From Capillimicrobium parvum (lineage in GTDB: Bacteria; Actinomycetota; Thermoleophilia; Solirubrobacterales; Solirubrobacteraceae), in assembly GCF_021172045.1 (NCBI RefSeq), contig NZ_CP087164.1, forward strand, positions 868,001-932,000: a stretch of 64,000 nucleotides of DNA, written 5' to 3'. Shown piece after piece: positions 32,231 to 52,611 of the stretch. Positions within the stretch are counted from its first letter, which is position 1. Every line of letters begins with the position of its first letter. A program made the position numbers and the translations under genes. Below the pieces are notes generated by a model that was given only the letters and a program-made list of their open reading frames with translations, did no database searches and was not told the origin of the DNA.

Positions 32231-33547
32231 ATGCGTAGACGGCTTGTCCGCCGACGGCGAATGGCCGTGATCGGGGGCATCGTCGCGCTCGCGGCGGTCT
32301 CCGCGGGATGCGGGAGCAGCGGCAGCGACACCACGGCGGGCAGCGCCGCGACCGCGGCGTCCACCGCGCCGTCCGGGACCACCACCACCGCAGCCACGAG
32401 CGGGAGCGGCAAGGCGGCCCTGGCATCGAATTGCGGGCCCATCTCGACCCAGGCCCCGGCCGACCCGGACGGGATGCTCGGAGCCTTCGACGCCGGCGTG
32501 AAGGAGCAGTTCGGCGGCTACCCCGAGACGGTCCACAAGAGCGTCTGGACGGACTGGAAGCCGAGCCATGCCGCGCCCTACAAGGTCGGCGTGCTCTGGG
32601 CTCAGCTGTCCAACCCCGTGCAGAGCGAAGGGTTCAAGCAGGCGCAGGCGGCCGCGAAGGCGGTTCCCGGTGTCGAGGAGGTCGTCCCGCTCGTCACCAG
32701 CTCGGGCAAGCTGACCGATCAGATCCAGCAGTACAACTCCCTGGTCCGCCAGAAGGTCGACGTGATCATCCTGCAGCCGCTGTCGCCCGGTGCGTTCGCG
32801 CAGCCGATCGCGGCGGCCGCAAAGGCCGGCATCCCGACCATCACGATCGCCGGCGGCGCGGTTGACTCCGCGAACGCGATCAACCTGAACCAGAACTTCT
32901 ACCGCGACTCCCAGGTGATGGCATCGCGTCTGGTCAACAACATGGGCGGGAAGGGCAACGTCCTCATCGTCCGCGGAGTGCCGGGCTTCTCCCAGGACAC
33001 GATCTCCGGCCGCGCCTACGAGGACATGCTCAAGAGCTGCAGTGACGTCACCGTCGCGGGCAAGGTCGTCGGGATGTACACCCCTTCGGTCGCCAAGGCC
33101 GAGGTGCTGAAGTTCCTCGCCACCCACCCCGGCAAGATCGACGGTGTCGCGCAGGCCGGCACGATGGCACCTGGGATCATCGAGGCCTTCGAGCAGGCCG
33201 GGCGGCCGGTGCCGCCGGTCATGGAGCCGCTCCCGGCCGGAGGCACGCTCGTCTACTGGAAGGACCATCTGCCCGACTACCACGGGCTGGCGGTCGGCTA
33301 TCCGCAGACGACGCCGATCATCCAGGACACCCTGGCGCGGATGTTCGACGGCAACGGGCCGAAGATCAGCGAGATCCTCATCCCCACCGTCGGCGTGGAC
33401 GACGGGAACCTCGATCAGTTCATCAAGCCGGGATGGACCGACAAGACCGAAGACGTCGCGGTCGTGCCGGATGCCCTGGTGCCGAAGTCGTCCTCCTTCG
33501 ATGCCTACTTCGCCAACGGCGATCAGGGCGTCGCGGCGGGGCAGTAG
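32231..33547 (+). CDS. ABC importer substrate-binding lipoprotein, RbsB-like
   Basis: The 438-residue protein has a Tat/Sec-like basic start and a lipobox AAVSAGC with the lipidated Cys at about 27, then a Ser/Thr/Ala linker. The Peripla_BP_4 core starts KVGVLWAQLSNPVQSEGFKQ and includes VDVIILQPLSPGAFAQPIAAAAKAG and the hinge region KIDGVAQAGTMAPGIIEAFEQ. It captures a small ligand outside the membrane for the transporter that follows; family members usually bind sugars, but the catabolic genes downstream suggest a hydantoin- or lactam-like ligand. Confidence 0.88.
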   Translation: MRRRLVRRRRMAVIGGIVALAAVSAGCGSSGSDTTAGSAATAASTAPSGTTTTAATSGSGKAALASNCGPISTQAPADPDGMLGAFDAGVKEQFGGYPETVHKSVWTDWKPSHAAPYKVGVLWAQLSNPVQSEGFKQAQAAAKAVPGVEEVVPLVTSSGKLTDQIQQYNSLVRQKVDVIILQPLSPGAFAQPIAAAAKAGIPTITIAGGAVDSANAINLNQNFYRDSQVMASRLVNNMGGKGNVLIVRGVPGFSQDTISGRAYEDMLKSCSDVTVAGKVVGMYTPSVAKAEVLKFLATHPGKIDGVAQAGTMAPGIIEAFEQAGRPVPPVMEPLPAGGTLVYWKDHLPDYHGLAVGYPQTTPIIQDTLARMFDGNGPKISEILIPTVGVDDGNLDQFIKPGWTDKTEDVAVVPDALVPKSSSFDAYFANGDQGVAAGQ

Positions 33548-33630
33548 CGGAGGCGACGAGGCATGACGAGCCACCCCGGTCGCGGGACGGTCTGCGACCG
33601 GGGACTCCGCCTCATCGACGCCGTACGCCG

Positions 33631-35190
33631 ATGATCACCAGCTCCACCGAGACGACGCAGTCGACCGGCGCAGCCGCCCCCGCGGTCCTTGACGCCCGCG
33701 GCGTGGTCAAGGCGTTCGGCGCCACCCAGGCGATCGCCGAGGCGACCATCGCCGTCGCCCCCGGCGAGGTGCACGCGCTCGTGGGCGAGAACGGCTCGGG
33801 CAAGAGCACCCTGGTCAAGATCCTCACGGGCGTGCATCCGCCCGATGCCGGCACCGTCGTCGTCGACGGCACGACGCTGGATCGGGTTCCGGGTCCCCGC
33901 GGCGCATCCCGGCACGGGATCGTGACCGCGTTCCAGGAGGTCCTCGTCGTGCCGGCGCAGACGGTCGGCGAGAACCTCTGGCTGGGCGTCGACGGGATCC
34001 TGCGCCATCGCGTGGGTCGCGAGCAGAAGCGGCGTCGGGGGGCGGCGATCCTGGCGGAGCTCCTGGTCGAGCCGCCGCCGCTGGACCGCCCGGTCGAGGA
34101 GCTGTCGCTCAGCGTCCGGCAGGCGTGTTGCGTGGCCCGCGCGCTCCTGCGCGACCCGAAGGTCCTGATCCTCGACGAGGCGACCTCGGCGCTGGACATC
34201 GCGACCCGAGACCGGCTGTTCGACGTCATTCGCCGCCGTTGCTCGGCGGGCTGCAGCGTGATCTTCATCTCGCACCGCATGGATGAGGTCGACGAGATCG
34301 CCGACCGCGTCACGGTGATGCGCGCCGGGCGCACGGTCGCCACGTTGGAGCGCGGGCAGGCCCGCACGGAGGATCTGGTCCGGCTCATGACCGGCTCCGG
34401 CCACCTCGTACCCGACGAGGTGACGCGGCGGTCGTCGGCCGGCGGCGCGGTCGTCCTTCGTGCGCGCGACGCGCGCCTGCGTGCGGGGGGTGCGCCGCTC
34501 GGCTTCACCCTTCGCGCCGGGGAGATCGTCGGGCTCGCCGGGCTGGATGGGCATGGCCAGGATCGGTTCCTGCGCGGACTTGGCGGGTTCGGCGTGGCAG
34601 GCGGCGAGATCCTGTCCGGGGATGCGCAGGCCGGCCGTCCGATCTCGACGGTGGCGGATGCCGCGGCGTGCGGCATCGCGTATCTGCCGCGCGAGCGCCG
34701 CGGTGAGGCGCTGTTCGAGTCGCTGTCGATCCTGCGGAACTTCGCGGTGGCCACGCTGCCCGCCGACCGCCGGGCCGGTCTGGTGGCGGACCGCCGCACG
34801 GTCCAGCGGTTCCTGCCCTTCGTCGAGCGTCTGGGCATCAAGCTCGGACGCGTCGAGGATCCGATCCGCTCCCTGAGCGGGGGCAACCAGCAGAAGGTGG
34901 TCCTGGCCCGTTGGCTGGCGGCCGGGCCGCGGATCCTGCTGCTCAACGATCCGACGCGCGGCATCGACCTCGGGGCCAAGCGCGACCTCTACGGCCTGCT
35001 GCGCGAGCTTGCCGACGACGGCATGGCCGTGGTCATGCTGTCGACGGAGGTCGACGAGCACGTTGAGCTGATGGATCGCGTCCTCGTGTTCCGCGAGCAT
35101 GAGCTGTCCGCCGAGCTGACGCGGGCTCAGCTGAGCCGTCAGACGCTCGTCTCGGCGTTCTTCCGGTCAGGGGCGACGGCGCATGCATGA
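33631..35190 (+). CDS. ABC importer ATPase, RbsA-like with two nucleotide domains
   Basis: The 519-residue protein carries two ATPase domains. Domain 1: Walker A GENGSGKST, Walker B LILDEATSALD, with a degenerate signature LSLSVRQ. Domain 2: degenerate Walker A region GLDGHGQDRFL, good signature LSGGNQQKVVLARWL and Walker B ILLLNDPTRGID. This asymmetry is usual for ribose-type transporters. ATG 33631 is used. It overlaps the first permease by 8 bases. Confidence 0.92.
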   Translation: MITSSTETTQSTGAAAPAVLDARGVVKAFGATQAIAEATIAVAPGEVHALVGENGSGKSTLVKILTGVHPPDAGTVVVDGTTLDRVPGPRGASRHGIVTAFQEVLVVPAQTVGENLWLGVDGILRHRVGREQKRRRGAAILAELLVEPPPLDRPVEELSLSVRQACCVARALLRDPKVLILDEATSALDIATRDRLFDVIRRRCSAGCSVIFISHRMDEVDEIADRVTVMRAGRTVATLERGQARTEDLVRLMTGSGHLVPDEVTRRSSAGGAVVLRARDARLRAGGAPLGFTLRAGEIVGLAGLDGHGQDRFLRGLGGFGVAGGEILSGDAQAGRPISTVADAAACGIAYLPRERRGEALFESLSILRNFAVATLPADRRAGLVADRRTVQRFLPFVERLGIKLGRVEDPIRSLSGGNQQKVVLARWLAAGPRILLLNDPTRGIDLGAKRDLYGLLRELADDGMAVVMLSTEVDEHVELMDRVLVFREHELSAELTRAQLSRQTLVSAFFRSGATAHA

Positions 35191-36145
35191 CGTTCTCGCC
35201 CTGGTGCGCAAGCACAGCTTCGTGCTCGCTCTCGCCCTGTCGCTCGCGCTGTTCGTCGGCAACGTCATCGCCGAGCCGAGCTTCGTCAGCTGGGACAACG
35301 TGCCCGATCAGCTGGCGACGTTCGCGCCGCTCGCGATCGCCGCCCTCGCGAGCATGCCGTCGATCCTCAGCGGCGGCGGAGGGATCGACATCTCGATCGG
35401 GCCGGCCATGAGCGTCGTGAACGTCGTGCTCGTCTTCTGGCTGTTCCCGCACGACGTCGCCGCTCCGCTGGCGATCGCGATCGTGCTCGCCATCTCCACG
35501 GCGATCGGGCTCGTCAACGGCTTTTTCGTCGGTGTCCTGCGCTATCCCCCGGTCGTCGCGACGCTGTGCATGTTCTTCGTCCTGCAGGGCGTCGCCCTGA
35601 AGATCGCGCCGACCGCCGGCCAGGCTCCGGGCAACTGGACCGAGCAGCTCGGACAGAGCGTCGGCCCGGTGCCGGGTGGGCTGATCCTCGTCGCCGCCGT
35701 GGTGCTGATCTGGCTCGCGCTGGCGGCGACCCCGTACGTGCGCGCGCTGTACTCGGTGGGCGGCAGCGACGCGGCGGCGTTTGCGTCGGGCGTGCCGGTG
35801 ACCGTGGTGCGGGCGCTCGCGTACGGCATCGGAGGCCTGTTCGCCGGGATCGGCGGGATCGCGCTCACGGCGCTGGTGCAGTCGGCGGACACCGCCCTGG
35901 CCACGGAGTACACGCTCCTGGCGCTCGCCGCGGTCTCGCTGGGCGGCACGCCGATCGGCGGTGGCCGCGGAGGGCTGATCGGCACGCTGCTCGGCGCGGC
36001 CGTGATCTACCTGCTGCAGACCTTCCTGTCCGCGGTGCACGTCTCGCCGAACTACACCTCGGTCGTCTATGGGGCGCTGCTGGTCGGCGCACTCGTGTTC
36101 GGGGCGCTGGTGACGAGCAAGCGGCGGTTCGGAGGAGCGACGTGA
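35183..36145 (+). CDS. ABC importer permease, RbsC-like (first)
   Basis: The 320-residue protein has about 9-10 membrane helices and the BPD_transp_2 layout, including GGGIDISIGPAMSVVNVV near residues 60-80 and LAAVSLGGTPIGGGRGGLIGTLLGA near 250-275, the conserved permease loop. It pairs with the second permease to form a heterodimeric channel. Start overlaps the ATPase gene; its stop overlaps the next start (GTGA). Confidence 0.9.
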   Translation: MHDVLALVRKHSFVLALALSLALFVGNVIAEPSFVSWDNVPDQLATFAPLAIAALASMPSILSGGGGIDISIGPAMSVVNVVLVFWLFPHDVAAPLAIAIVLAISTAIGLVNGFFVGVLRYPPVVATLCMFFVLQGVALKIAPTAGQAPGNWTEQLGQSVGPVPGGLILVAAVVLIWLALAATPYVRALYSVGGSDAAAFASGVPVTVVRALAYGIGGLFAGIGGIALTALVQSADTALATEYTLLALAAVSLGGTPIGGGRGGLIGTLLGAAVIYLLQTFLSAVHVSPNYTSVVYGALLVGALVFGALVTSKRRFGGAT

Positions 36146-37164
36146 GCGCGGATACGGCCGAGACCCCGGAGGGCCGCGAGACCGCCGGGCGGCGCCCGTT
36201 GCTGCGCACGCTGAGCCGGGCGCAGGAGCGTCTGCCGCTGGCCCAGCTGGCGGCCATCGTCGCGCTGTTCATCTACGGCGCGAGCACCATCGACGGCTTC
36301 TCGAGCCCGGGCAGCGTGAAGTCGATGCTGGTGTTGGCCGCGCTGCTCGGCATCTCCGCGGCCGGGCCGACGCTCGTGATCCTCATCGGCGGATTCGACC
36401 TGGCGGTGCCCGCCTACATCGCGGCCGGAGCGACCATCACCGCGCAGCTGTCGGGCGCGAGTCACTGGCCGTTCATCGCGATCCTGGCGGTCGTCGGCGC
36501 GATCGCCGCCGTTCTCGGGGGCCTGACGGGATGGCTCAGCCATCGCTTCCAGCTCGAGTCGATGATCGTCACGCTGGGCACCGCGGCGCTCATCACCGGA
36601 GCGATCCTGGTGTGGACCGGGGGCACGCCCGGCGGCCAGGCGCCGGCCTGGCTGTCCCGGTTCGTCTCGCCGGCCGGCACGACCTTGGGGGTCGGCATCC
36701 CGCCGGTCGTCGTGCTCTGGGCCGTTCTCGCCGTGCTGCTCATCATCGGCCTGCGGCTGACGGTGACCGGCCGCCGGCTCTACCTGACGGGCGCCAACCC
36801 GACCGCGGCGGCGTACGGGCTCGTGCGCACCCGTCGCATGTGGACCGGCACGTTCGCGCTCGGGGCCGTCCTCTCGGCCGTGACCGGCGTCCTTCTCGGC
36901 GGCTTCGCCGGCGGTGGGGACCTCGCGATCGGGAACCCGTACCTGTTCCAGGGGCTCGCGGCGATCATCGTCGGCGGCGTGGCGTTCGGCGCAGTCGGCG
37001 GGTACGCGAACACGGTGGTCGGCGCGCTCCTGCTCACCGTTCTGACCACGATCCTGGTCGGCAAGGGCGCGGGAACGGCCGAGCAGCTGATGCTGTCAGG
37101 CGTGCTGATCGCCCTCGTCGTGGGCGTTCACGGACGCGAGCGACGTGTGCGCGACCGTGTCTGA
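36142..37164 (+). CDS. ABC importer permease, RbsC-like (second)
   Basis: The 340-residue permease starts at GTG 36142 behind GGAGGAG, overlapping the first permease by GTGA. Features: VLIGGFDLAVPAYIAAGATITAQ near 75-95 and AIIVGGVAFGAVGGYANTVVGALLLTVL near 270-300. Having two different permeases is a common variant of this transporter class. The gene is followed by a hairpin and the convergent FadR-type regulator. Confidence 0.9.
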   Translation: MSADTAETPEGRETAGRRPLLRTLSRAQERLPLAQLAAIVALFIYGASTIDGFSSPGSVKSMLVLAALLGISAAGPTLVILIGGFDLAVPAYIAAGATITAQLSGASHWPFIAILAVVGAIAAVLGGLTGWLSHRFQLESMIVTLGTAALITGAILVWTGGTPGGQAPAWLSRFVSPAGTTLGVGIPPVVVLWAVLAVLLIIGLRLTVTGRRLYLTGANPTAAAYGLVRTRRMWTGTFALGAVLSAVTGVLLGGFAGGGDLAIGNPYLFQGLAAIIVGGVAFGAVGGYANTVVGALLLTVLTTILVGKGAGTAEQLMLSGVLIALVVGVHGRERRVRDRV

Positions 37165-37177
37165 GCCGGCGCGCTCA
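37162..37177. terminator. Hairpin between permease and FadR-type regulator
   Basis: TGAGC, loop CGGCGC, GCTCA: a 5-bp stem whose outer ends are the two convergent stop codons. Confidence 0.4.
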
Positions 37178-38014
37178 CGCCGATCCGGCGAGGTCCGCGC
37201 CCGTTGCCGCGGAGGGCTCTTTCGCGGGCCGCGACGCGCCGAGGCGCCGGCCGACGAACAGCTCCTCGAAGGCCGCCATGTGGTCGTCCATCGTCGCGAT
37301 GATGCGCTCGGGGTCGCGCCGCTCCACCGCCTCCAGCGTGCGGCGCTGGTTGGCCAGGGCGACGCCGAGGTCGACCCGGCCCACCGGGCACTGCGTCATG
37401 ACGAGCGTGATCCGGTCGAGGACCCAGCGCACGGACTGAGCCAGGCCGGGGCTTCCGGAGGCGGTGGCGAGCGCGGCATGAAACCGGATGTCCCGGGCGA
37501 GGAACGCCGCCGCGTCGTCGAGCAGCTCGTCGAGCGCCTCGACGAGCTCCCGCAGGTGGGACAGCTCGGCCGCGGTGGCGCGTTCGGCGGCGAGGAGGGC
37601 CCCCGTCAGCTCCAGCGTGCGGCGCACCTCCAGCAGCGTGGGGAGTGCGAGCGCGGTCTCGTCGCCCCGGCCGGCCATGACCTCCGCGATCTTCTCCGGC
37701 GCGATGACCGTCGCGCCGCCGGAGGCGCCCCGCCGGACGGATACGACGCCGGCGCGGCGCAGGACGCCGATCGCCTCGTGCACGACGGTGCGGCTGACAC
37801 CGAGGCGGGCGGCGAGGTCACGCTCGCGAGGGAGCATGGAACCGGGTGGGTACAGGCCGCCGCTGATCGCGTTGACGAGCACGGCCACGACCTCGTCGGC
37901 GGCGGTGCGCACCCGGATCGGACGGAAGGCGGCGGTGCCGCGGTCGTCGTACGGGACGCCGGCTTCGGGCGCCTGCTGCTCGGCCTTGACCATCGAGGGC
38001 ACCGGTTCTCGCAT
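37175..38014 (-). CDS. GntR regulator of the FadR subfamily (first)
   Basis: The 279-residue protein has a GntR winged helix (RTAADEVVAVLVNAISGGLYPPGSMLPRERDLAARLGVSRTVVHEAIGVLRRAGVV) and a C-terminal FCD ligand domain with metal-type residues in DIRFHAALATASGSP and DDHMAAFEEL. It sits between the importer operon (convergent) and the racemase/hydantoinase operon (divergent), so it likely controls the latter and perhaps both. A GCATTG...CAATGC inverted repeat with 15-bp spacing lies in the 62-bp gap to the racemase start (within 38027-38053). Confidence 0.88.
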   Translation of the reverse strand: MREPVPSMVKAEQQAPEAGVPYDDRGTAAFRPIRVRTAADEVVAVLVNAISGGLYPPGSMLPRERDLAARLGVSRTVVHEAIGVLRRAGVVSVRRGASGGATVIAPEKIAEVMAGRGDETALALPTLLEVRRTLELTGALLAAERATAAELSHLRELVEALDELLDDAAAFLARDIRFHAALATASGSPGLAQSVRWVLDRITLVMTQCPVGRVDLGVALANQRRTLEAVERRDPERIIATMDDHMAAFEELFVGRRLGASRPAKEPSAATGADLAGSA

Positions 38015-38076: not shown

Positions 38077-38811
38077 ATGCGCCTGATGCTGCTGAACCCG
38101 AACACCACCGAGGCGATGACCGCGGACATGGAGCGCCAGGCGAACCGCTATGCGCGCGCGGGTACCGAGATCGAGGGCTTCACCGCGAAGTTCGGCGCGG
38201 AGTCGGTCGAGTGCGCCTACGAGGAGGAGTTCGCGATCATGTCGTTCCTCCAGACGATCCGCGAGCGCGCCGACGCGTTCGACGGCGTGATCCTGTCCTG
38301 CTTCGGCGATCCCGGCCTGTACGCCTGCCGGGAGCTGTCGCCGGTGCCGGTCGTCGGCATCGCGGAGGCCTCGATGCTGATGGCGTGCACGGTGGCGCAC
38401 AAGTGGTCGATCGTCACCGTGATCCCGCGCGTCAAGCCGATGGCCGAGCACCTGGTGCGCTTCCACGGCCTCGAGCAGCGCTGTGCATCGATCCGCACGA
38501 CCCCGCTGTCGGTGCTCGACTGCGAGCGTGAGCCCGAGCGTGCCGTGCGCGAGATGGTCAAGGCGTCGCAGGCCGCGGTCGCGGAGGACGGCGCGGAGGC
38601 CATCCTGCTGGGCTGCGGCGGCATGGGCCCGCTGGACGACGAGATCGCCAAGGCCGTCGACGTGCCCGTCATCGACGGCATCGTGTGCGCGGTCAAGCTG
38701 CTCGAGGGGCTTCACGACTACGGGCTCAAGACGAGCCGCCACGCGGCGTTCATGCGGCCCGAGCCCAAGGACCTCGCCGGCGTTCCGGGCCTGGGCGGCG
38801 TCTCCGCATGA
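38077..38811 (+). CDS. Asp/Glu/hydantoin racemase family protein
   Basis: The 244-residue protein begins MRLMLLNPNTTEAMT, typical of hydantoin racemases. The two catalytic cysteines are expected in GVILSCFGDPG (about 75) and ILLGCGGMG (about 176). Such enzymes interconvert enantiomers of 5-substituted hydantoins or acidic amino acids, or act as maleate/malonate decarboxylase-type isomerases. Strong ribosome-binding site AGGAGGAG. It heads a GTGA/ATGA-coupled operon of ring-opening enzymes, supporting the hydantoin reading. Confidence 0.85.
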   Translation: MRLMLLNPNTTEAMTADMERQANRYARAGTEIEGFTAKFGAESVECAYEEEFAIMSFLQTIRERADAFDGVILSCFGDPGLYACRELSPVPVVGIAEASMLMACTVAHKWSIVTVIPRVKPMAEHLVRFHGLEQRCASIRTTPLSVLDCEREPERAVREMVKASQAAVAEDGAEAILLGCGGMGPLDDEIAKAVDVPVIDGIVCAVKLLEGLHDYGLKTSRHAAFMRPEPKDLAGVPGLGGVSA

Positions 38812-40874
38812 CGGGCCGTCCCGAGGCGGTGCGCAGGGTCGCCGTCGACATCGGCGGGACGTTCACCGACGTCGTGTTCGAGGACACATCCGGTGCCGTG
38901 CGGGCGCTGAAGGTCAGCACCACCCCGCGGGACATCACGGTCGGCATCCTCGCCGGCCTCGACCGCGCGGGGGCGGCGCCGGATCGCCTCGAGGCCTTCG
39001 TGCACGGCACGACGATCGCGCTCAACGCGCTGCTCGAGGGAACGACGCCCGCGGTCGGCCTGATCACGACGCGTGGGTTCCGCGACGTGCTCGAGATCAT
39101 GCGCACGAGCCGACCGGACATGTACAACCTCCAGCAGGACAAGCCGCAGCCGCTCGTGCCGCGGCGCCTGCGCCGTGAGGTCGGCGCGCGCATGACGTAC
39201 ACCGGCGAGGAGCTGTCGCCGGTCGACTCCGCCGAGGTGCGCGCGCTCGCGGCGGAGTTCGCCGCCGAGGGCGTCACGTCGATCGCCGTGTGCCTGCTGC
39301 ACGCGTACGTGGACGGCCGCCACGAGCGGGAGGTGCGCGACGTCGTGCAGGAGGTGCTCCCGACCGCCAGCATCTCCATCTCCAGCGACATCAGCCGGGT
39401 GTGGCGCGAGTTCGAGCGGACGTCGACCACGGTGTCCAACGTGGCGACGAAGCCGATCGTCGACCGGTACATGACGGTGCTCGAGCGCGAGCTCGACGAC
39501 CGCGGGTTCGACGCCAACGTCCTGATCATGCAGTCCAGCGGCGGGGTGATGTCGGGCTCGACCGCGCGCGAGCGGCCGGTCTCGACCCTGATGTCGGGAC
39601 CGGTCGGAGGCGTGACCGGGGCGGCCGGACTGGCGCGTGCGCTGGGGCCCGAGACCAGCCTCGTCACGCTGGACATGGGCGGCACCAGCGCGGACGTGGC
39701 GATCGTCGACCGCGGCGCCCCGGTGACCCGCTCCGTCGGCCATGTCGGCCGGTGGCCCGTGATGGTGCCGATGATCGACATCGAGGCGATCGGGGCCGGG
39801 GGCGGCTCGATCGCCCGCGTGGATGACTTCGGTGGTCTGCGGGTGGGACCGGAGAGTGCCGGGGCCGACCCCGGCCCGGCCTGCTACGGCCGGGGCGGCC
39901 GGGCCGCGACGGTGACCGATGCGAACGTGGTGCTCGGCCGCATCGATCCCGGCTACTTCCTGGCAGGTGAGCTGGAGCTCGACGCGGCGGCGGCCGAGCG
40001 GGCGGTCGCGGAGGGCGTCGCCGAGCCGCTCGGTCTGTCCGTCGAGGCCGCGGCAGAGGGCATCGTCACGGTCGTCAACTCGAACATGACCCGGCTGCTG
40101 TGGGAGATGATGATCGCGCGCGGCTACGACCCTCGCGAGTTCTCCCTGCTGGCGTTCGGCGGCGCGGGCCCGTTGCATGCCTGCGAGCTGGCGGGCGCGC
40201 TCTCGATCGGGGAGGTCCTCGTGCCGCCCGAGCCCGGCACGTTCTCGGCGGCCGGCATCCTCAGCGCCGACCTGCGCCATGACGTCGACCGGATGCTCGT
40301 GGATGTCGCGTCGGACCCGTCCGCGGAGCAGCTCGAGGCGGCGTTCGCGGAGCTGGAACGCCAGGCGCGCGCCGCGCTGGAGGCCCAGCACCGCGGCCTT
40401 GGCCGGATCGACATCGCCCGCTTCGCGGAGCTGCGCTACGCCGGGCAGGACCATGTGCTCTCGGTGGAGCTCACGCAGGACCTGGGCAGCGATCTGCGCG
40501 AGGCGGCGCAGCGGCGCTTCCATGACAAGCACCTCCGTCTCTACGGCTTCCAGCGCGACGACGTCGCGGTCGAGATCGTCCGCATCCAGGTCGTGAGCTC
40601 CGCGCAGATGGGCGGCCGGAGCGTCATGACGTTCACGGCGCGTGCGCCCGAACGCGCGCGCGCCGGGCGATCGGCGGGCATCTACGTGGACGGGGCGCGG
40701 GTCGAGGCGACGCGCCTCGAGCGCGCGGCGCTGGAGGCGGACGTCCCGCACGAGGGACCGCTGGTCCTCGAGGAGCCCGGCTCCACCACGTACGTGCCGC
40801 CGGGCTGGGTCGCGCGGGCCCGACGCGACGGTGTCCTGAGCCTGACCATGAGCGACGCAGAGGAGGGAGTCTGA
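38808..40874 (+). CDS. hyuA: Hydantoinase/oxoprolinase subunit A (first copy)
   Basis: The 688-residue subunit belongs to the ATP-dependent N-methylhydantoinase/5-oxoprolinase/acetone carboxylase family. The N-terminal ATPase motif is VAVDIGGTFTDVVFED; later come LMSGPVGGVTGAAGLA, LDMGGTSADVAIVD, GAGGGSIARVD and ADPGPACYGRGG, all conserved. It works with the B subunit to hydrolyse a cyclic amide or ureide at the cost of ATP. ATGA overlap with the racemase and TGATG with the B subunit fix both ends. Confidence 0.93.
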   Translation: MTGRPEAVRRVAVDIGGTFTDVVFEDTSGAVRALKVSTTPRDITVGILAGLDRAGAAPDRLEAFVHGTTIALNALLEGTTPAVGLITTRGFRDVLEIMRTSRPDMYNLQQDKPQPLVPRRLRREVGARMTYTGEELSPVDSAEVRALAAEFAAEGVTSIAVCLLHAYVDGRHEREVRDVVQEVLPTASISISSDISRVWREFERTSTTVSNVATKPIVDRYMTVLERELDDRGFDANVLIMQSSGGVMSGSTARERPVSTLMSGPVGGVTGAAGLARALGPETSLVTLDMGGTSADVAIVDRGAPVTRSVGHVGRWPVMVPMIDIEAIGAGGGSIARVDDFGGLRVGPESAGADPGPACYGRGGRAATVTDANVVLGRIDPGYFLAGELELDAAAAERAVAEGVAEPLGLSVEAAAEGIVTVVNSNMTRLLWEMMIARGYDPREFSLLAFGGAGPLHACELAGALSIGEVLVPPEPGTFSAAGILSADLRHDVDRMLVDVASDPSAEQLEAAFAELERQARAALEAQHRGLGRIDIARFAELRYAGQDHVLSVELTQDLGSDLREAAQRRFHDKHLRLYGFQRDDVAVEIVRIQVVSSAQMGGRSVMTFTARAPERARAGRSAGIYVDGARVEATRLERAALEADVPHEGPLVLEEPGSTTYVPPGWVARARRDGVLSLTMSDAEEGV

Positions 40875-43845: not shown

Positions 43846-44468
43846 TGGCTCTCCAGCAGTGAGGCAGCGCGCTCGCCGTCACGCGCGATGACCGCGTCGG
43901 CGATCGCGTTGTGCTCGTCGACGGCGTCGCGCTGCGGGCGCTTCGCCGCCGCCCAGTGCACGATCAGGTCGGCGGTGGAGGCGAGCTGATCGCGGATGTC
44001 CAGCAGCACGTCGTTGCCGCAGCCCGAGACGATCGCGTGGTGAAAGCTGAAATGCGCCGCCGCCCAGGCGTCGGACACCGAGTCCTGCTCGTTCGCGGTG
44101 CGCTGCGGGGTGCTGAGGAGCCGATGCAGGGCCGCGACCACCGAGGACTCCCACTCGAGATCACCGCGTTCGGTCGCGAGGCGGACGGCGAGCCCGTCGA
44201 TCCGGATCCGCGCTTCGGTGTGTTGCGTCAGGTGCTCGGACGTGAGCGCGACGACCGAGAAGCCCTGGTGGGCCCGTGAGACGACGAGCCGGTCGCCGAC
44301 GAGCCGCGTGAGCGCCTCGCGCACCACAGGGATGCTGACGCCGAGCCGCTCGGCGACCTCGCCCGGTTTGAGCCGCGCACCGGGCGCCAGCCGACCGCCC
44401 ATGATCTCCTGGCGCAGCGCCTCGTAGGTGCTGCCGATCCTGTTGCCTCCGTCTTCGGTCCGTGCCAT
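43794..44468 (-). CDS. GntR regulator of the FadR/FCD subfamily (second)
   Basis: The 224-residue protein has a winged helix (STYEALRQEIMGGRLAPGARLKPGEVAERLGVSIPVVREALTRLVGDRLV) and an FCD domain with FHHAIVSGCGNDVLLDI and a late ESHYQTT. It is divergent from the FAH-led operon and convergent with the first hydantoinase operon, mirroring the role of the first regulator. Confidence 0.88.
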   Translation of the reverse strand: MARTEDGGNRIGSTYEALRQEIMGGRLAPGARLKPGEVAERLGVSIPVVREALTRLVGDRLVVSRAHQGFSVVALTSEHLTQHTEARIRIDGLAVRLATERGDLEWESSVVAALHRLLSTPQRTANEQDSVSDAWAAAHFSFHHAIVSGCGNDVLLDIRDQLASTADLIVHWAAAKRPQRDAVDEHNAIADAVIARDGERAASLLESHYQTTADSLIVSGLVGP

Positions 44469-45437: not shown

Positions 45438-46591
45438 GCGTGATCTCCTTCGGGCGCGGCATGCCGTCGGTCGACATCGTCGACATGGACGCGCTGGAGG
45501 CGGCCGCGCACCGGGCGTTTCGCCGTGATCGAGCCGGGATAGCCGGCTACGGGCCGCCCGCCGGACATCCACCGCTGCGCTCGTGGATCGCCGAACGGCA
45601 CGGCGTCGATCTCGAGCGGGTCTTCATCAGCAACGGCTCGATGCAGGCGATGTCGTTCCTCTTCGACCACGTCCTGCGTCCGGGCGACGCGGCGCTGGTC
45701 GAGTCGCCGACGTTCGACCTGACGCTGCGCGCTCTGCGCCGGCGGGGCGCTGACGTCCACGGCATCGCCGTCGACGCTGACGGATTGAACGTCGATGCGG
45801 TCGCGGCGGCGCTCGACGCGGGGGTGCCCGCGCGCCTGCTGCACGTGGTGCCCAACTTCCAGAACCCCACCGGCACGACGCTGCCGCCGGAGCGGCGCCG
45901 GGCCCTCGTGGAGCTTCTGTCGGACCGCGGCGTCCTGCTGCTCGAGGACGATCCCTACGCCGACCTGCGGTTTGCCGGCACCCCACTGGCGCCGATGCTC
46001 GGCACGGCGGCGCCGGACGAGATCGTCTACAGCTCGTCGTTCTCGAAGATCGTCTGCCCCGGCGTCCGCGTCGGGTATCTGATCGCGCCCCCGCCGGTCG
46101 TGTCCGCGCTGGAGGAGGCATCGCTGGAGACCTACCTCAGCGCGAACACGCTTTCGCAGGCCGTCGTGTACGAGCTCTGCGCCGGCGGCGCGCTCGACGC
46201 CGCGATCGCGAAGGCGGTCGCCGGCCTGGCGGAGCGGGCGCGCACCCTCGTCACGGCGCTGCGGCGGGAGCTGCCGGATGCGCGGTTCACCGTTCCCGAG
46301 GGCGGCTACTTCGTGTGGCTCGAGCTCGCGCCCGACACCGATGCCGTCGCGCTGAGCCAGGAGCTCGAGGCGGACCAGGTGACCGTCATGCCGGGCACGT
46401 GCTTCACCGTGAGCGGCGGCCGCCACGCGCTGCGGCTCTCCTATGCGAGCGTGACGCCGCCGGAGATCGACGAGGGGATCGCGCGGCTCGCCGCGGTGTA
46501 CCGGGCGCACCGCGGGAGCGTCGACGGGACCGCGAGCGCCGCGACCATGCCGGCGGCAGCCGGGGCGAGTCACGACAGGCAAGGGGCGTAA
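45434..46591 (+). CDS. PLP-dependent aminotransferase, class I (MocR/2-aminoadipate type)
   Basis: The 385-residue fold-type I enzyme has HVVPNFQNPTGTTLPPERR, EDDPYADL and the Schiff-base Lys205 in SSSFSKIVCPGVRVGY; the similarity is to the aminotransferase part of MocR proteins and 2-aminoadipate/valine-type transaminases, without a DNA-binding domain. It probably converts the amino acid released by ring opening into a 2-oxo acid. ATGA overlap with the FAH gene. The last 30 residues are Ala-rich and unlikely to be conserved. Confidence 0.9.
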   Translation: MSVISFGRGMPSVDIVDMDALEAAAHRAFRRDRAGIAGYGPPAGHPPLRSWIAERHGVDLERVFISNGSMQAMSFLFDHVLRPGDAALVESPTFDLTLRALRRRGADVHGIAVDADGLNVDAVAAALDAGVPARLLHVVPNFQNPTGTTLPPERRRALVELLSDRGVLLLEDDPYADLRFAGTPLAPMLGTAAPDEIVYSSSFSKIVCPGVRVGYLIAPPPVVSALEEASLETYLSANTLSQAVVYELCAGGALDAAIAKAVAGLAERARTLVTALRRELPDARFTVPEGGYFVWLELAPDTDAVALSQELEADQVTVMPGTCFTVSGGRHALRLSYASVTPPEIDEGIARLAAVYRAHRGSVDGTASAATMPAAAGASHDRQGA

Positions 46592-46597: not shown

Positions 46598-48661
46598 ATG
46601 CACTACGCAGGCATCGACATCGGCGGCACGTTCACCGACCTGGTGCTCTACGACGCCGGCAACGGCGACGTCCACGTCCACAAGGTGCGCTCCACCCCGA
46701 GCGATCCGGGGCAGGCGCTGATCCAGGGGCTCGTCGAGCTCACGGACCGTGCCGGCGTCGACGCGTCCGACGTGGTGGCCGTCCTGCACGGGACCACCGT
46801 CGCGACGAACGCGGTGCTCGAGCACCGCGGCGCGCGGACCGGGATGATCACCACCGAGGGCTTCCGCGACGTCGTGCACATCGGCCGTCATCAGCGCCCC
46901 GAGCACTACTCGGTCATGCAGGACATCCCGTGGCAGTCGCGCCCGTTCGTCGAGCGCTGCCATCGCAAGACGGTGTCCGAGCGGCTCATCCCGCCGCGCG
47001 GCGACGTCATGCGACCGCTCGACGAGGACGCCGTGCGCGTCGCCGCCCGCGAGCTGCGCGAGGCGGGAGTCGAGGCGGTTGCGGTCTGCTTCCTGTTCTC
47101 CTACCTCGACCCGGCGCACGAGCGGCGGGCCGCCGAGATCGTGCGCGAGGAGATGCCGGACGCCTTCGTGACGACGAGCGCCGACGTCGTGCCGCAGTTC
47201 CGCGAGTTCGAGCGCTTCACCACGACGTCGATCAACGCCTTCGTCGGACCCGGCACGGGCCGGTACCTCGGCCGGCTCAGCGCCGGTCTCGACGCGGCGG
47301 GGATCCGCGGCCAGGTCGGGATCATGCGCTCCAACGGCGGGCTGGCGAGCGCGGACGCCGCGGCGGAGCGCCCGGTGACGATGCTCATGTCCGGGCCCGC
47401 GGCCGGCGTGCTCGGCGGAGCCTGGGCAGGCTCGCTGATCGGACGCAAGCGCCTGATCACCTTCGACGTCGGCGGCACGTCGGCCGACATCGCGATCGTC
47501 ACCGAACAGGGCGTCGTCGAGGCGTCGGCGCGCGACTCCCAGGTCGCCGGCTTTCCCGTGCTCGTCCCCATGATCGACGTTCACGCCATCGGCGCGGGCG
47601 GCGGCTCCATCGCGCGGGTGGACGACGTCGGCGCCTTCCGCGTCGGCCCGCAGAGTGCGGGCGCGGAGCCGGGGCCCGCGGCCTACGGCAACGGCGGCGA
47701 TCAGCCGACGGTCACGGACGCCCACGTCGCGCTGGGCCGCCTCGACCCGGACCGCTTCCTCGGCGGCCGCATGCAGCTCGACCGCGACGCTGCTCTCGCC
47801 GTGATCGAGCGCCTCGCCGGGGAGATGGAGATGGACGCCGACGCGGCGGCGGAAGGGGTGCTCGCGCTCGTCAACGCGACGATGGCCCAGGCGATCCGCT
47901 CGCGCACCGTCCAGAAGGGCCACGACCCGCGCGAGTTCGCGCTCGTGGCGTTCGGCGGCGCCGGGCCGCTGCATGCCGCCGAGGTCGCTGCCGAGCTCGA
48001 GATCCCCGAGGTGATCGTGCCGCCGCATCCGGGCATCACGTCGGCCACCGGCCTGCTGACGAGCGATCTGCGCTACGACGGCATGCGCACGGTCTTCGCG
48101 TCGGAGCGCGACATCGACTTCGGCGATCTCGGCCGGCGCCTCGACGAGCTCGAGGAGGAGCTGCGCGGCGGGCTTCGCCGCGACGGCGTGCGCGACGGGG
48201 ACATGCGCGTCGAGCGCGCTCTCGACTGCCGCTATCGCGGTCAGGGCTACGAGCTGCGGGTGCCGCTCGGGGCGAGCGGCGTCGACGCAGAGGCGTTCGC
48301 GACGTTCCACCGGCTGCACCGGATGGAGTACGGCCGTGAGTTCGCCGTTCCGATCGAGGTCGTCAACATGCGCATCACGGTGTCGGGCGCGCGCTCCAAG
48401 CTCGAGCGGGTGCCCGCGGGATCGGGTGACCTCGGCGCCGCGGTGCTCGACCGCCGCCCCGCGGTGTTCCGCGTCGACGGCGAGCTGCGCGCGATGGAGA
48501 CCGTGATCGTCGATCGCGCCAACCTCTCCCCGGGCAATCAGGTGGACGGCCCCGCCATCTTCGTGCAGGAGGACACGACCACGGTCGTGCCACCGGGCTG
48601 GCGGGCCCGGACCGAGGACAACGGGGTCCTCGTGCTGACATCGATCGCGAACGGAGGCTGA
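46598..48661 (+). CDS. hyuA: Hydantoinase/oxoprolinase subunit A (second copy)
   Basis: The 687-residue protein begins YAGIDIGGTFTDLVLYDAG and has LHGTTVATNAVLEHRGA, MLMSGPAAGVLGGAW, FDVGGTSADIAIV, GAGGGSIARVDDVG and GAEPGPAAYGNGG. It is clearly a distant paralogue of the copy at 38808 (shared motifs but many substitutions between them), so the two pairs probably differ in substrate. Followed after 2 bp by its B subunit. Confidence 0.93.
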   Translation: MHYAGIDIGGTFTDLVLYDAGNGDVHVHKVRSTPSDPGQALIQGLVELTDRAGVDASDVVAVLHGTTVATNAVLEHRGARTGMITTEGFRDVVHIGRHQRPEHYSVMQDIPWQSRPFVERCHRKTVSERLIPPRGDVMRPLDEDAVRVAARELREAGVEAVAVCFLFSYLDPAHERRAAEIVREEMPDAFVTTSADVVPQFREFERFTTTSINAFVGPGTGRYLGRLSAGLDAAGIRGQVGIMRSNGGLASADAAAERPVTMLMSGPAAGVLGGAWAGSLIGRKRLITFDVGGTSADIAIVTEQGVVEASARDSQVAGFPVLVPMIDVHAIGAGGGSIARVDDVGAFRVGPQSAGAEPGPAAYGNGGDQPTVTDAHVALGRLDPDRFLGGRMQLDRDAALAVIERLAGEMEMDADAAAEGVLALVNATMAQAIRSRTVQKGHDPREFALVAFGGAGPLHAAEVAAELEIPEVIVPPHPGITSATGLLTSDLRYDGMRTVFASERDIDFGDLGRRLDELEEELRGGLRRDGVRDGDMRVERALDCRYRGQGYELRVPLGASGVDAEAFATFHRLHRMEYGREFAVPIEVVNMRITVSGARSKLERVPAGSGDLGAAVLDRRPAVFRVDGELRAMETVIVDRANLSPGNQVDGPAIFVQEDTTTVVPPGWRARTEDNGVLVLTSIANGG

Positions 48662-48663
48662 TC

Positions 48664-50343
48664 ATGGCGACGACGACACGGGTCGATCCAGTGACCGCGG
48701 CGGTGATCGCGGGCGCACTCGAGTCGATCGCGACCGAGATGGGCCACAAGCTCGCGCGCATGTCGTACTCGTCGATCATCCGAGAGTCCGAGGACTTCGG
48801 GTGCGTGATCTGCGATGCCGACGGTCAGCAGCTGTGCGAGTCGCCCCAGTCGACGCCGCTGCAGTCGGGTCCGATCCCCGGCTACGTCCGCGGCATCAAC
48901 CGGCGATTCGCCGAGCTGGGCGACGCCTGGGGGCCAGGCGACGTCGTGATGCACAACCACTCCTACTACGGTGCCTCGCACCAGCCCGACGTCGCCTTCG
49001 TGATCCCGGTCTTCCACGGCGATCAGCTCGTCGGGTTCTCGGCCACGGCGGCCCACCACCTCGATCTCGGCGCGCTGACCCCCGGCACCGTGGGCATCGT
49101 CGACGCCATCGACTCCTACGCCGAGGGACTGCAGTTCAACGCGGTCAAGGTGGAGGAGGACGGCCGGCGCAACGAACAGGTGTGGCGGATGGTGGCCGAC
49201 AACGTCCGGATCCCGGCACTCGTCCTGCCGGACATGGAGGCCCAGATCGCCGGCGCGCGTCTCGGCGCCGAGCGGTATCTCCAGCTCATCGAGCGCTACG
49301 GGCTCGATACGGTGCGCGCCGCTTCCGCTGACCTGCTCGACCAGAGCGAGGCGGCCCTGCGCCGGGCGATCGAGCGGATACCGGACGGGCGCTACGAGGC
49401 GGAGGGCATGCTCGACGGCTTCCCTGAGCTGGCCGACCCGCAGTATCGCGACTGGGTCGTTCGCGTGGCGATCACGGTCGAGGGCTCGAGCATGCACGTC
49501 GACCTCACCGGTACGTCGGAGCAGACCGACAAGCCGTACAACATGCCGTTCGTCGGCACCGTCGACATCGCCGTGCTGCTGACCGTGCGCTCGATCCTGC
49601 TGGATTCGGCGGTGCACGACGCGGTGCCCGCGAACTCCGGGCTGTTCCGGCCGATCACGATCGAGGCGCCGCTCGGCTCGATGGCCAACCCGGTCTTCCC
49701 CGCGCCGACGACCGGGCGAGCCATGGGGGGCAACATCGTCGCCGACACCGTCATGCGGGCGCTCGCGCCCGTCGTGCCCGACCGTGTCAGCGCCGGCATC
49801 GGCAACCTCAAGGCGACCGCGCTGTCGGGGGTGACCGACGGCGAGCCGTGGGTGCACATGGAGATCATCGAAGGCAGCTACGGCGGCCGGCTCGGCAAGG
49901 ACGGTCTCGACGCGGTCGACACCCTGTACGCCAACACGCGCAACAACCCGATCGAGGACGTCGAGAGCCATCATCCGCTGCGGATCGAGCGCTACGAGCT
50001 GTGGGAGGGCCACGTCGGCGACGGGCGCTGGCGCGGAGGCCTGGGATGCGTGCGCGACATCGGCTTCACCGCACCCGGCGGGTACACCATCGACGGGGAC
50101 GGCACGCGCCACGCCCCTCCGGGCCTGTTCGGCGGCGAGCCGGGCAGCCCGGGATCGGTGATCCTCAACCCCGGCACCGACCGCGAGACCGTCCTGCCGC
50201 CGAAGGTCGCGCATCGCCGGGCCGAGGCGGGAGACGTGCTGCGCTTCATCGGGCCCGCCGGAGGGGGCTACGGGCCGCCGTCCGAGCGCGACCCCGAGGC
50301 GCGCCGCGCGGACGCCATGAACGGTCTGACGAGCGAAGCGTGA
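48664..50343 (+). CDS. hyuB: Hydantoinase/oxoprolinase subunit B (second copy)
   Basis: The 559-residue protein begins DPVTAAVIAGALESIATEMGHKLARMSYSSIIRESEDFG, with WGPGDVVMHNHSYYGASHQPDVAFVIPVF in place of the NDPY...GTH loop of the first copy: HNHSYYGASH still offers His ligands. The C-terminal GDGRWRGGLGCVRDIGF and AGGGYGPPSERDPE are conserved. GTGA overlap with the amidohydrolase. Confidence 0.93.
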   Translation: MATTTRVDPVTAAVIAGALESIATEMGHKLARMSYSSIIRESEDFGCVICDADGQQLCESPQSTPLQSGPIPGYVRGINRRFAELGDAWGPGDVVMHNHSYYGASHQPDVAFVIPVFHGDQLVGFSATAAHHLDLGALTPGTVGIVDAIDSYAEGLQFNAVKVEEDGRRNEQVWRMVADNVRIPALVLPDMEAQIAGARLGAERYLQLIERYGLDTVRAASADLLDQSEAALRRAIERIPDGRYEAEGMLDGFPELADPQYRDWVVRVAITVEGSSMHVDLTGTSEQTDKPYNMPFVGTVDIAVLLTVRSILLDSAVHDAVPANSGLFRPITIEAPLGSMANPVFPAPTTGRAMGGNIVADTVMRALAPVVPDRVSAGIGNLKATALSGVTDGEPWVHMEIIEGSYGGRLGKDGLDAVDTLYANTRNNPIEDVESHHPLRIERYELWEGHVGDGRWRGGLGCVRDIGFTAPGGYTIDGDGTRHAPPGLFGGEPGSPGSVILNPGTDRETVLPPKVAHRRAEAGDVLRFIGPAGGGYGPPSERDPEARRADAMNGLTSEA

Positions 50344-51683
50344 GCGGGCTGGCGCATGATCTGCGCACGGTCGCGAGGTTCAGCGACCGCGACGATCAGA
50401 TCACGCGCCTGGCGTGGTCGCCGGCCCACGTCGAGGCCATGCGCTGGATGGTCGGCGAAGCGACCGCGCTCGGGCTGGATGCCGGCATCGACGCCGCCGG
50501 AAACGTCGTGGCCCGGTGGGGCCCGGCGACCGGTCCCGCGCTCGCCGTCGGATCCCATCTCGACTCGGTGCCCGACGCGGGCCGGCTCGACGGCGTCCTC
50601 GGGGTCCTCGCGGCGCTGGCCGCGGTACGCCGCCTCCAGGCGCAGGGCTTCACACCGCGCCGGCCGGTGTGGGTCATCGCCTTCATGGACGAGGAGGGAG
50701 CCCGGTTCGGTACGCCGCTGTTCGGGAGCCGCGCGTTCGTCGGCGAGGACCTCGAGCCGAGCCTGGCCGCGGTCGACGCCGACGGCGTCTCGATCGCCGA
50801 CGCCATGCGGAAGGCCGGCTTCACGCCGGATCGGCTGGGGGACGCCTGCGCGATCGACCGCGTCGGGGCGTACCTCGAGCTGCACATCGAGCAGGGGCCC
50901 GTCCTCGAGAAGGCGGGCGCCGACATCGGCGTCGTGCGGGCCATCTCGGGCGGCGCCGTCCTGGCCGTCGGCTTCACGGGCCATGCCGGCCATGCCGGCA
51001 CGGTTCCGATGGACATGCGCCGTGACGCCCTGGTCGGGGGCGCCCGAGCGATCGTGGCGCTGCGCGACGCCGCTCTGGGCGGCGGCGACCTGCGGATCAC
51101 GGTGGGACGGATCGCGGCGCATCCGGGCGGGACGAACGTCATCCCGGGAGGGTGTGAGCTCAGCGTCGACATCCGGTCGGCCGATCCCGACGCGCTCGAT
51201 CGCGGGCGCGACGTCGTCGGGCGGATCGTGGAGCGGATCGCCTCCGAGGAGGGTCTGCAGGGGAGCGTCCGGACGCTGACGGAGTTCGCTCCCCTTCAGC
51301 TCGACGAGACGATCATCGCGACGGTGGCGCGAGCCGCGGCGGCCGAGTCGGCCGTCGCACTCGACGTGGTCAGCGGCGCGGGCCACGACGCGCTGGTGAT
51401 CGGGCGCGCCGTGCCGGCGGGAATGATCTTCGTTCCCAGCCGGAACGGCATCAGCCACCACCCCGAGGAGGCGACGTCCGCCGACCAATGCGAGCTGGGC
51501 GAGCGGGTGCTCGCGCGGGCCATCCGCGCCCTTGCCGGTCAAGACACGAACGGAGGAGAGATCGATGAGCGTCGAGACAGCGGAGGACAAGCCGGCCGGG
51601 CAGCGTTCCGCCCCCCGGCTGGGAGTCGGGTTCATCGGGGCGCCGTCGGTCCCGGAGATGGTGCGGCTGGCGCGGCGGGCTGA
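50340..51683 (+). CDS. N-carbamoyl-L-amino-acid hydrolase/allantoate amidohydrolase (M20)
   Basis: The protein has the features of the HyuC/AllC group: AVGSHLDSVPDAGRLDGVLGVLA with the first metal ligands (about 70), FMDEEGARFGTPLFGSRAF (about 118), ELHIEQGPVLE and GHAGHAGTVPMDMRRDAL. Such enzymes remove the carbamoyl group that ring opening of a hydantoin leaves on the amino acid, so this is the strongest pointer to a ureide substrate. Start is GTG. After RAIRALAGQ the frame continues for about 48 residues that look non-homologous and overlap the next gene by 119 bases; a one-base change would instead stop at 51568 in an ATGA overlap, as elsewhere in this operon. Confidence 0.88.
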   Translation: MSGLAHDLRTVARFSDRDDQITRLAWSPAHVEAMRWMVGEATALGLDAGIDAAGNVVARWGPATGPALAVGSHLDSVPDAGRLDGVLGVLAALAAVRRLQAQGFTPRRPVWVIAFMDEEGARFGTPLFGSRAFVGEDLEPSLAAVDADGVSIADAMRKAGFTPDRLGDACAIDRVGAYLELHIEQGPVLEKAGADIGVVRAISGGAVLAVGFTGHAGHAGTVPMDMRRDALVGGARAIVALRDAALGGGDLRITVGRIAAHPGGTNVIPGGCELSVDIRSADPDALDRGRDVVGRIVERIASEEGLQGSVRTLTEFAPLQLDETIIATVARAAAAESAVALDVVSGAGHDALVIGRAVPAGMIFVPSRNGISHHPEEATSADQCELGERVLARAIRALAGQDTNGGEIDERRDSGGQAGRAAFRPPAGSRVHRGAVGPGDGAAGAAG

Positions 51684-52611
51684 GGCCGCGGGCTTCGAAT
51701 CAGCGTGGGTGGCGGAGACGCGGATGACGCGCGACGCGTTCGTCCCGATGGCCGCGATCGCTCAGGCCACCGAGCGGATGCACGTCGGCTCGGCCATCGT
51801 CAACGTGTTCAACCGTAGCCCCATGGTGATCGCGGTCACGCTGACGAGCCTGCGCGAGCTCGCTCCGCACCGCGTCATCGGCGGGCTCGGTGCCGGCTCA
51901 CCGCTGATCCTCGGCAAGCAGGGGATCGCGTTTCACCGGCCGGTGACGCGCCTGCGGGAGTACGTCCAGGTGCTGCGCCCGCTGCTCGCGGGCGATCCCG
52001 TGACGTTCTCCGGCGAGACGATCGAGCTCGACGACGTGCGGATCGAGGACATCGCCGCCGGAACATCGCCCGGACTGGGCGGCGGCGATGTCGTGCCGCT
52101 CTATCTCGGCGTGACCGGGCCGCGCGCCCTCGAGCTCGGGGGCGAGGTCGCCGATGGCGTGCTCATCAACGGCTTCATGTCGACCGCCTACGTCGACCGG
52201 GCGCTCGACCGGATCGGTCGGGGTGCAGCTCGAGCCGGGCGCGCGCTCGACGACGTCGACGTCTGCTCCCTGCTGGTCACCTCCTGCGACGAGCGCTCAT
52301 CCGTCGCCAAGGACCGGGCGCGGCGGCTCATCGCCATGTACCTGTCCATGTTCGCCAACATCGCCCGGGAGAGCGGGCTGGACGAGTCACGCGTGGCCCA
52401 CACGCGCGAGCGGTTCCAGGCGGGTGGCATCGATGCCGCTGCCGCCACGATCGACGACGACATCGTCGACACGCTCACCGTCGCGGGAACCCCCGACGAG
52501 TGCGCCGCGCGGATGGACGCATATCGCGCGCGGGGGGTGAATCATCTGGTGCTCAGCCCCATCGGCGACACCCACGAACTGGTCATCGATGCGCTCGGTG
52601 CAACCTGCTGA
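51565..52611 (+). CDS. LLM-class flavin-dependent oxidoreductase
   Basis: The 348-residue protein has the luciferase-like barrel: GVGFIGAPSVPEMVRLARRAEAAGFESAWVAETRMTRDAF, the VNVFNRSPMVIAVTLTSL segment, PHRVIGGLGAGSPLIL and LYLGVTGPRALELGGEVADGVLINGF. The pattern is that of F420-dependent methylene-H4MPT-reductase-like enzymes, though FMN monooxygenase activity is equally possible. ATG 51565 follows GGAGGAG. As the last gene of the catabolic operon it may start or finish oxidation of the imported compound. Confidence 0.88.
   Translation: MSVETAEDKPAGQRSAPRLGVGFIGAPSVPEMVRLARRAEAAGFESAWVAETRMTRDAFVPMAAIAQATERMHVGSAIVNVFNRSPMVIAVTLTSLRELAPHRVIGGLGAGSPLILGKQGIAFHRPVTRLREYVQVLRPLLAGDPVTFSGETIELDDVRIEDIAAGTSPGLGGGDVVPLYLGVTGPRALELGGEVADGVLINGFMSTAYVDRALDRIGRGAARAGRALDDVDVCSLLVTSCDERSSVAKDRARRLIAMYLSMFANIARESGLDESRVAHTRERFQAGGIDAAAATIDDDIVDTLTVAGTPDECAARMDAYRARGVNHLVLSPIGDTHELVIDALGATC

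Follow-up and report, generated by a model that had tools for sequence, protein, structure and literature searches.

A predicted catabolic locus of Capillimicrobium parvum that probably joins a hydantoin module to a second cyclic-amide module

Among described systems, the hyuA-hyuB-hyuC-hyuE operon of the Pseudomonas sp. NS671 type is closely related to the locus reported here, which occupies positions 32231-52611 of a 64,000-nucleotide window (868001-932000 of contig NZ_CP087164.1) from Capillimicrobium parvum, a soil-type actinobacterium whose genome is a single contig of 5.95 Mb. Both have HyuA and HyuB, an M20-family N-carbamoyl-L-amino acid hydrolase and a hydantoin racemase, whereas in C. 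parvum the racemase gene lies in a neighbouring block, a CUT2-type importer stands in place of the NCS1 hydantoin transporter, and an LLM oxidoreductase, an aminotransferase, a FAH-family hydrolase and a second hyuAB pair are extra. CapAB of Pseudomonas jessenii, 5-oxoprolinase and N-methylhydantoinase belong to the same superfamily of ATP-dependent ring-amide hydrolases and share its ATP and metal motifs with the present enzymes, which, unlike CapAB, fall under the caprolactamase cut-offs and have racemase and carbamoylase genes alongside.

Three further loci are similar in layout. The uncharacterised operon of Rubrobacter marinus (L068/L105) resembles the locus in HyuA (63%), HyuB (60%), LLM (51%), racemase (44%) and the carbamoylase-type M20b (42%), but carries an NCS1 transporter and an FmdA-type amidase, and lacks the FAH hydrolase, the aminotransferase and a second hyuAB. 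In another genome (G169, locus L066) the order is gntR, M20b-hyuA-hyuB-CUT2 substrate-binding protein-ATPase-permease, with HyuA 64%, HyuB 68% and M20b 51% identical, a divergent gntR1 homologue and a CUT2-type importer in the same gene run; this importer is, however, distant (ATPase 32%), and neither an LLM gene nor a second pair was found within the fetched region. On a plasmid of Haladaptatus sp. YSMS36 (L239), a stretch of about 20 kb unites two hyuAB pairs with a racemase gene, ABC importer genes and a carbamoylase-LLM pair, but this cluster is archaeal, only 31-48% identical, equipped with another importer and other enzymes, and without FAH or aminotransferase genes. The locus is thus a new arrangement of known parts and not a new type of system. 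The initial annotation had called the combination unfamiliar, and the exact order was indeed not found in what could be searched; nevertheless, judged by gene content the cluster has at least one counterpart, the Haladaptatus plasmid holding a similar gene set. Literature searches likewise retrieved no description of the gene combination, of an LLM enzyme associated with hydantoinases or of ABC hydantoin importers, although subscription papers were mostly outside their coverage and this is weak evidence of absence.

We consider it probable, with some reserve, that the locus is a mosaic catabolic island in which a hydantoin module and a second cyclic-amide module lie side by side, and not one linear pathway. 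This reading draws on features that are directly visible in the DNA, namely the gene families, their motifs and order, the conserved neighbourhood of the hydantoin module and the linkage of the LLM gene. Re-annotation from reading frames, family searches and start/stop spacing recovered every gene family that had been named at first sight, with matches far above chance in the profile searches, and divided them into an importer block (32231-37164), block 1 with the racemase, hyuA1, hyuB1 and M20a (38077-43845), and block 2 with the FAH hydrolase, aminotransferase, hyuA2, hyuB2, M20b and LLM (44568-52611), all on the plus strand.

The hydantoin module centres on pair 2. A scan of genome contigs with the HyuB2 alignment yielded 80 loci, 49 of them with enough flanking sequence, and in the latter an M20b-like gene accompanied hyuB in 40/49 and a racemase gene in 23/49 cases. 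Typical examples are NCS1-rac-LLM-hyuA-hyuB-M20b in Rubrobacter marinus, hyuA-hyuB-M20b-NCS1-rac on a Peribacillus plasmid and rac-hyuA-hyuB-M20b-LLM in a Bacillota metagenome-assembled genome. In gene content, the HyuB2 neighbourhood is that of the known ATP-dependent hydantoin utilisation operon, and a predicted chain from the racemase through HyuA2B2 to M20b is well supported by family and neighbourhood. M20b matches the N-carbamoyl-L-amino acid hydrolase 3n5f with an E-value of 5.8e-67; its frame extends 119 nt into the LLM gene, with a C-terminal tail that lies outside the part aligned to solved structures. Both catalytic cysteine motifs of the racemase (SCFGD and GCGGM) are present. As for transport, NCS1 genes occurred in only 22 of the 49 fully flanked loci and are therefore not an obligatory feature, while CUT2-type genes occurred in 9/49 (13/80 overall); family searches of the C. 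parvum locus found no NCS1 gene, and the CUT2-type importer is there instead.

The two ring-opening enzymes share 43% (HyuA1 and HyuA2) and 32% (HyuB1 and HyuB2) identity, so the pairs appear to be old, distinct subfamilies; a recent duplication is ruled out by the same values. The ATP and metal motifs of this enzyme class have been described for caprolactamase (PMC8453981). Both phosphate motifs and the adenosine motif are intact in HyuA2 (DIGGTFTD, DVGGTSAD, GAEPGP) and likewise in HyuA1. An Asp-His-Asp-His metal site was recovered by pattern in HyuB2 (ESEDFG, HQPDVA, HHLDL), and in HyuB1 three metal residues were found by pattern (EVKDFS, HKNDIN) and the fourth (GHWTD) was read from the sequence. 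In the HyuB tree, HyuB2 (L010) belongs to an 86-row clade, in which it groups with other Thermoleophilia sequences, and HyuB1 (L004) pairs with a sequence of a congener (G003) only; the FastTree run gave long-branch warnings outside the HyuB2 clade, and deeper placements were disregarded. No relative of hyuA2 was found in viral contigs.

One or both pairs could alternatively be lactamases akin to caprolactamase or oxoprolinase, in which case the aminotransferase and FAH hydrolase would process an amino acid made directly from the lactam. The best NCBIfam matches of both pairs are indeed CapA and CapB, and in Pseudomonas jessenii caprolactamase is followed by transamination. We nonetheless regard this explanation as rather improbable, with less certainty for HyuA1B1: the HyuA proteins reach 515 and 584 bits and the HyuB proteins 293 and 201 bits against equivalog cut-offs of 1000 bits, HyuA2 is far nearer to N-methylhydantoinase than to other solved superfamily members, and the carbamoylase gene overlaps hyuB2.

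The LLM oxidoreductase gene is the last of block 2. Homologues with 39-51% identity occur in the flanks of 8/80 HyuB2 loci, and in a tree that included the own-genome paralogues as far as possible the hydantoinase-linked LLM proteins group together (SH-aLRT 90), apart from these paralogues (at most 32% identical). The orthogroup stands beside hydantoin operons of Actinomycetota, Bacillota and Acidobacteriota alike, as do remoter homologues in haloarchaea. When plasmids were searched with the LLM protein only, the best match, from Halomarina, lay directly upstream of an archaeal hyuA2 homologue, followed by hyuB and a racemase gene, with an M20b homologue about 4 kb off. In Haladaptatus sp. YSMS36, the LLM gene directly follows a Zn-hydrolase gene within the cluster described above. 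Gene neighbourhoods and phylogeny together thus mark the LLM protein as a true partner of hydantoin operons. Its cofactor is possibly F420. The cut-offs for the F420-dependent methylene-tetrahydromethanopterin reductase Mer were missed (191/276 and 186/348.7 bits). F420 synthesis in this genome is likely because cofD is present, in two copies (1301857 and 1878290) that both exceed the family cut-off. FMN is a possible cofactor as well, since LLM homologues also adjoin such operons in Bacillota.

Three further haloarchaeal LLM matches (35-36%) lie in purine- or ureide-like islands with no hyuAB in the part displayed, next to genes for xanthine-dehydrogenase-like proteins, deoxyadenosine deaminase, amidohydrolase and Zn-hydrolase. 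These bear on the idea that the blocks act on purine-derived ureides such as allantoin, not on amino-acid hydantoins, with an allantoin racemase and an LLM enzyme of purine breakdown. In addition, the best solved match of the racemase is allantoin racemase 5lfd, followed by hydantoin racemase 3qvj, and M20b stands close to ureidoglycolate and allantoate hydrolases. However, family searches of the locus found neither a uricase nor a ureidoglycolate lyase nor any amidohydrolase of the allantoinase type, M20b scores slightly higher against L-carbamoylase, and the haloarchaeal LLM proteins concerned are distant, so that we judge purine ureides an unlikely substrate.

Pair 1 shows a different distribution. 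Among 146 genomes of the family, only the congener has a close relative of hyuB1 (68%), and aminotransferase homologues reach at most 52% in 60 relatives; inheritance of the locus throughout the family is thereby ruled out. In the congener, hyuB1 precedes M20a (61%), after which come a Liv-type substrate-binding protein and ATPase, and hyuA2-hyuB2-M20b with a divergent LLM gene lies on another contig; both contigs are short. Another M20a homologue (61%) adjoins a further hyuAB pair of the C. parvum genome at 4.85 Mb. Since M20a homologues thus stand beside HyuB genes in both organisms, hyuAB1-M20a appears to form a separate unit. Enzymes of the ArgE/DapE type, to which M20a belongs, remove N-acyl groups, and a carbamoyl product of pair 1 is therefore not required.

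The initial annotation had instead run import, LLM oxidation or direct ring opening, racemisation, ATP-dependent hydrolysis, decarbamoylation, transamination and keto-acid cleavage into a single route. Racemisation, ATP-dependent ring opening and decarbamoylation, together with the LLM gene, are supported as a conserved neighbourhood, whereas the union of everything in one pathway is not. That HyuA2B2 and HyuA1B1 open two rings or amide bonds of one compound in sequence, with M20b, M20a, the aminotransferase and FAH hydrolase downstream, finds some backing in the contiguity of the locus, in its two similar divergent-regulator arrangements, in the gene set united on the Haladaptatus plasmid and in the 4.84-4.87 Mb locus of the same genome, which combines several hyuAB pairs with a CUT2-type importer and the M20a homologue, but seems hardly probable given the different subfamilies of the two pairs, their separate contigs in the congener, a second hyuB beside only 1/80 relatives of hyuA2B2 (L080), and the general clustering of hyuB pairs in this genome.

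Several observations weigh against the mosaic of two modules. The racemase gene lies in block 1 and not in block 2, and pairs 1 and 2 both miss the NCBIfam equivalog cut-offs of characterised HyuAB-type enzymes. The frequency of LLM genes is biased, as the loci were first chosen via hyuB2, and the plasmid search is the sole independent check. Transamination and keto-acid cleavage had been taken as part of the pathway, yet neither FAH nor aminotransferase genes at 40% identity or more stand beside any of the 80 hyuA2B2 loci; their tie to hyuA2 consists of a 4-nt overlap and a 6-nt spacing, and one independent aminotransferase (34%) adjoins a HyuA2B2 homologue in Paroceanicella. A link of the FAH gene to aminotransferase or hyuAB genes elsewhere was dropped, the best partial match (62%) being found among cupin, flavin reductase and AMP-binding genes. 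The nearest structures of the FAH hydrolase are 8sky and 6iym (motifs NFRAH, DYEGELA and NDVSIRD), and that of the aminotransferase is 2egy (SFSK motif).

The importer, proposed at first as the locus's own, is a further objection. It is a complete CUT2 set of a Peripla_BP_4 substrate-binding protein, a two-domain ATPase and two CUT2-type permeases, but its close relatives, at 2.00 and 2.61 Mb of the same genome and in a congener (ATPase 56-57%), adjoin FAH, P450, SnoaL or FAD-enzyme genes and serve clusters without hyuAB, and its subgroup differs from the hydantoinase-linked CUT2 importers. The Liv-type importer that follows hyuB1-M20a in the congener counts against the assignment as well. A link to hydantoins is proposed here from position and by analogy with other CUT2-hyuAB clusters. 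The predicted fold of the binding protein resembles that of CUT2 sugar-binding proteins, with 4pe6 as the best match (TM 0.77 by target length); assignment of a ligand from it was dropped, as the fold indicates the CUT2 class only. Distant homologues of this protein (about 30%) occur on Rhizobiaceae plasmids (L188, L189, L190); two of the three adjoin genes for attM lactonase, and genes for bacteriorhodopsin and flotillin lie downstream.

From these comparisons we infer activities, substrate, importer ligand and regulation for the two modules as follows. The racemase would interconvert D- and L-forms of 5-substituted hydantoins, HyuA2 would use ATP to activate the ring amide, which HyuB2 would hydrolyse to an N-carbamoyl-L-amino acid, and from this M20b would take off the carbamoyl group to give the L-amino acid, NH3 and CO2. 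Judging by predicted co-transcription alone, the aminotransferase would then likely form the 2-oxo acid, for likely cleavage or decarboxylation by the FAH hydrolase. The LLM enzyme may act on the ureide or on its side chain by redox chemistry with flavin or F420, probably ahead of ring opening; the earlier formula of LLM oxidation or direct ring opening is conjecture. HyuA1B1 and the ArgE-like M20a may work in parallel as a second pair that opens and deacylates a related cyclic amide, the importer may supply one of these substrates, and the two GntR-type regulators may control the two enzyme blocks. More tentatively, the LLM orthogroup might carry out an undescribed flavin- or F420-dependent hydantoin or ureide step that feeds ATP-dependent hydantoinases, by a route common to bacteria and haloarchaea, with a new substrate class for HyuA1B1-M20a; we hold this wider proposal to be possible, if doubtful.

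The coordinates of all genes are given in Table 1. Most neighbours within a block overlap or are at most 14 nt apart (ATPase/permease 1 -8, permease 1/permease 2 -4, racemase/hyuA1 -4, hyuA1/hyuB1 -1, FAH/aminotransferase -4, hyuB2/M20b -4, M20b/LLM -119 nt), the gap between the binding protein and ATPase genes being 83 nt. The start/stop overlaps reported initially are thus real within blocks, but the two regulator genes face the opposite way and break the run, so a single linked series is not valid and at least three transcription units are present, not one. Each regulator gene separates two blocks and is divergent from the block it precedes; gntR1 has 47-49% identity to the gene divergent from the M20b-hyuA2-hyuB2 operon of G169, and no convincing operator motif shared between the regulator-gene gaps was found. 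Directly upstream of the importer lies a pair of alanine dehydrogenase (-) and Lrp/AsnC regulator (+) genes (30346-31977), and just downstream of the locus a 724-residue NosD/beta-helix protein is encoded at 54183-56357 (-), with a dip in G+C (0.65).

Table 1. Genes of the C. parvum locus, with positions in the window and supporting matches
Feature	Position	Strand	Evidence
CUT2 (ribose-type) lipoprotein substrate-binding protein	32231..33547	+	PF13407, E 1.7e-34
Two-domain RbsA-type ABC ATPase	33631..35190	+	AraG/RbsA-type NCBIfam models, best E 1.2e-104, under equivalog cut-offs
CUT2 permease 1	35183..36145	+	E 2.5e-28
CUT2 permease 2	36142..37164	+	E 2.9e-19
GntR-type regulator 1 (gntR1), divergent from racemase gene	37175..38014	-	GntR-type sequence; identity to G169 gene
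Hydantoin/allantoin-type racemase	38077..38811	+	PF01177, E 3.8e-51
hyuA1, putative ATP-binding subunit of ring-opening enzyme 1	38808..40874	+	PF01968/PF05378
hyuB1, putative metal subunit of ring-opening enzyme 1	40874..42589	+	PF02538, E 1.6e-161
M20a, ArgE/DapE-type N-deacylase	42604..43845	+	TIGR01910, 220 bits, over its cut-off
GntR/FCD regulator 2 (gntR2), divergent from FAH	43794..44468	-	PF00392, PF07729
FAH-family hydrolase (acylpyruvate hydrolase/oxaloacetate decarboxylase type)	44568..45437	+	PF01557, E 7.9e-65
Class I/II aminotransferase (2-aminoadipate/kynurenine type)	45434..46591	+	PF00155
hyuA2, putative ATP-dependent hydantoinase large subunit	46598..48661	+	Best solved match N-methylhydantoinase 7hk5, E 1.1e-190
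hyuB2, putative ATP-dependent hydantoinase metal subunit	48664..50343	+	86-row clade tied to carbamoylase/racemase genes
M20b, N-carbamoyl-L-amino acid hydrolase type	50340..51683	+	Best structures 3n5f, 4pxe
LLM (flavin or F420) oxidoreductase, hydantoin-operon orthogroup	51565..52611	+	PF00296

The genome as a whole encodes 29 Hydantoinase_B, 49 LLM and 21 M20 genes and four strong Asp/Glu/hydantoin racemases. Sixteen of the 29 HyuB genes lie within 15 kb of another (3.8 expected; reached by 0/5000 random draws), and owing to this clustering two adjacent pairs are not unusual in this organism. With rotated positions, in counts that include the window's own genes, all four racemase genes lie within 10 kb of a HyuB gene (0.3 expected, p=0.002), as do five of the 21 M20 genes within 5 kb (0.9 expected, p=0.003), and LLM genes near HyuB are weakly enriched (6 versus 2.3 expected, p=0.06). 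A hydantoinase-rich island at 5.71-5.77 Mb (L075-L077) holds five HyuB genes, and three of the four strong racemases are encoded within or just beside it. A second hydantoin-type pair at 787304-791700 (L205:9299-13717; HyuA 62% and HyuB 67% to pair 2) is followed by an apparently truncated or split M20b homologue and preceded by an IclR gene and biotin-carboxylase-like genes. The composite locus at 4.84-4.87 Mb (L070, L071), with three hyuAB pairs, also has carbon-nitrogen hydrolase, polysaccharide deacetylase, isochorismatase and transposase genes.

Proteins of the HyuA/HyuB family are abundant, as the C. parvum genome illustrates, and their substrates are known for few. The locus would offer a compact test set, in which a likely true hydantoinase stands beside a divergent one together with candidate enzymes for the downstream steps. 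Attention is also drawn to the LLM oxidoreductase, which recurs with hydantoin operons and has apparently not been described as their partner, and to CUT2-type importers as a possible alternative to the NCS1 hydantoin transporter.

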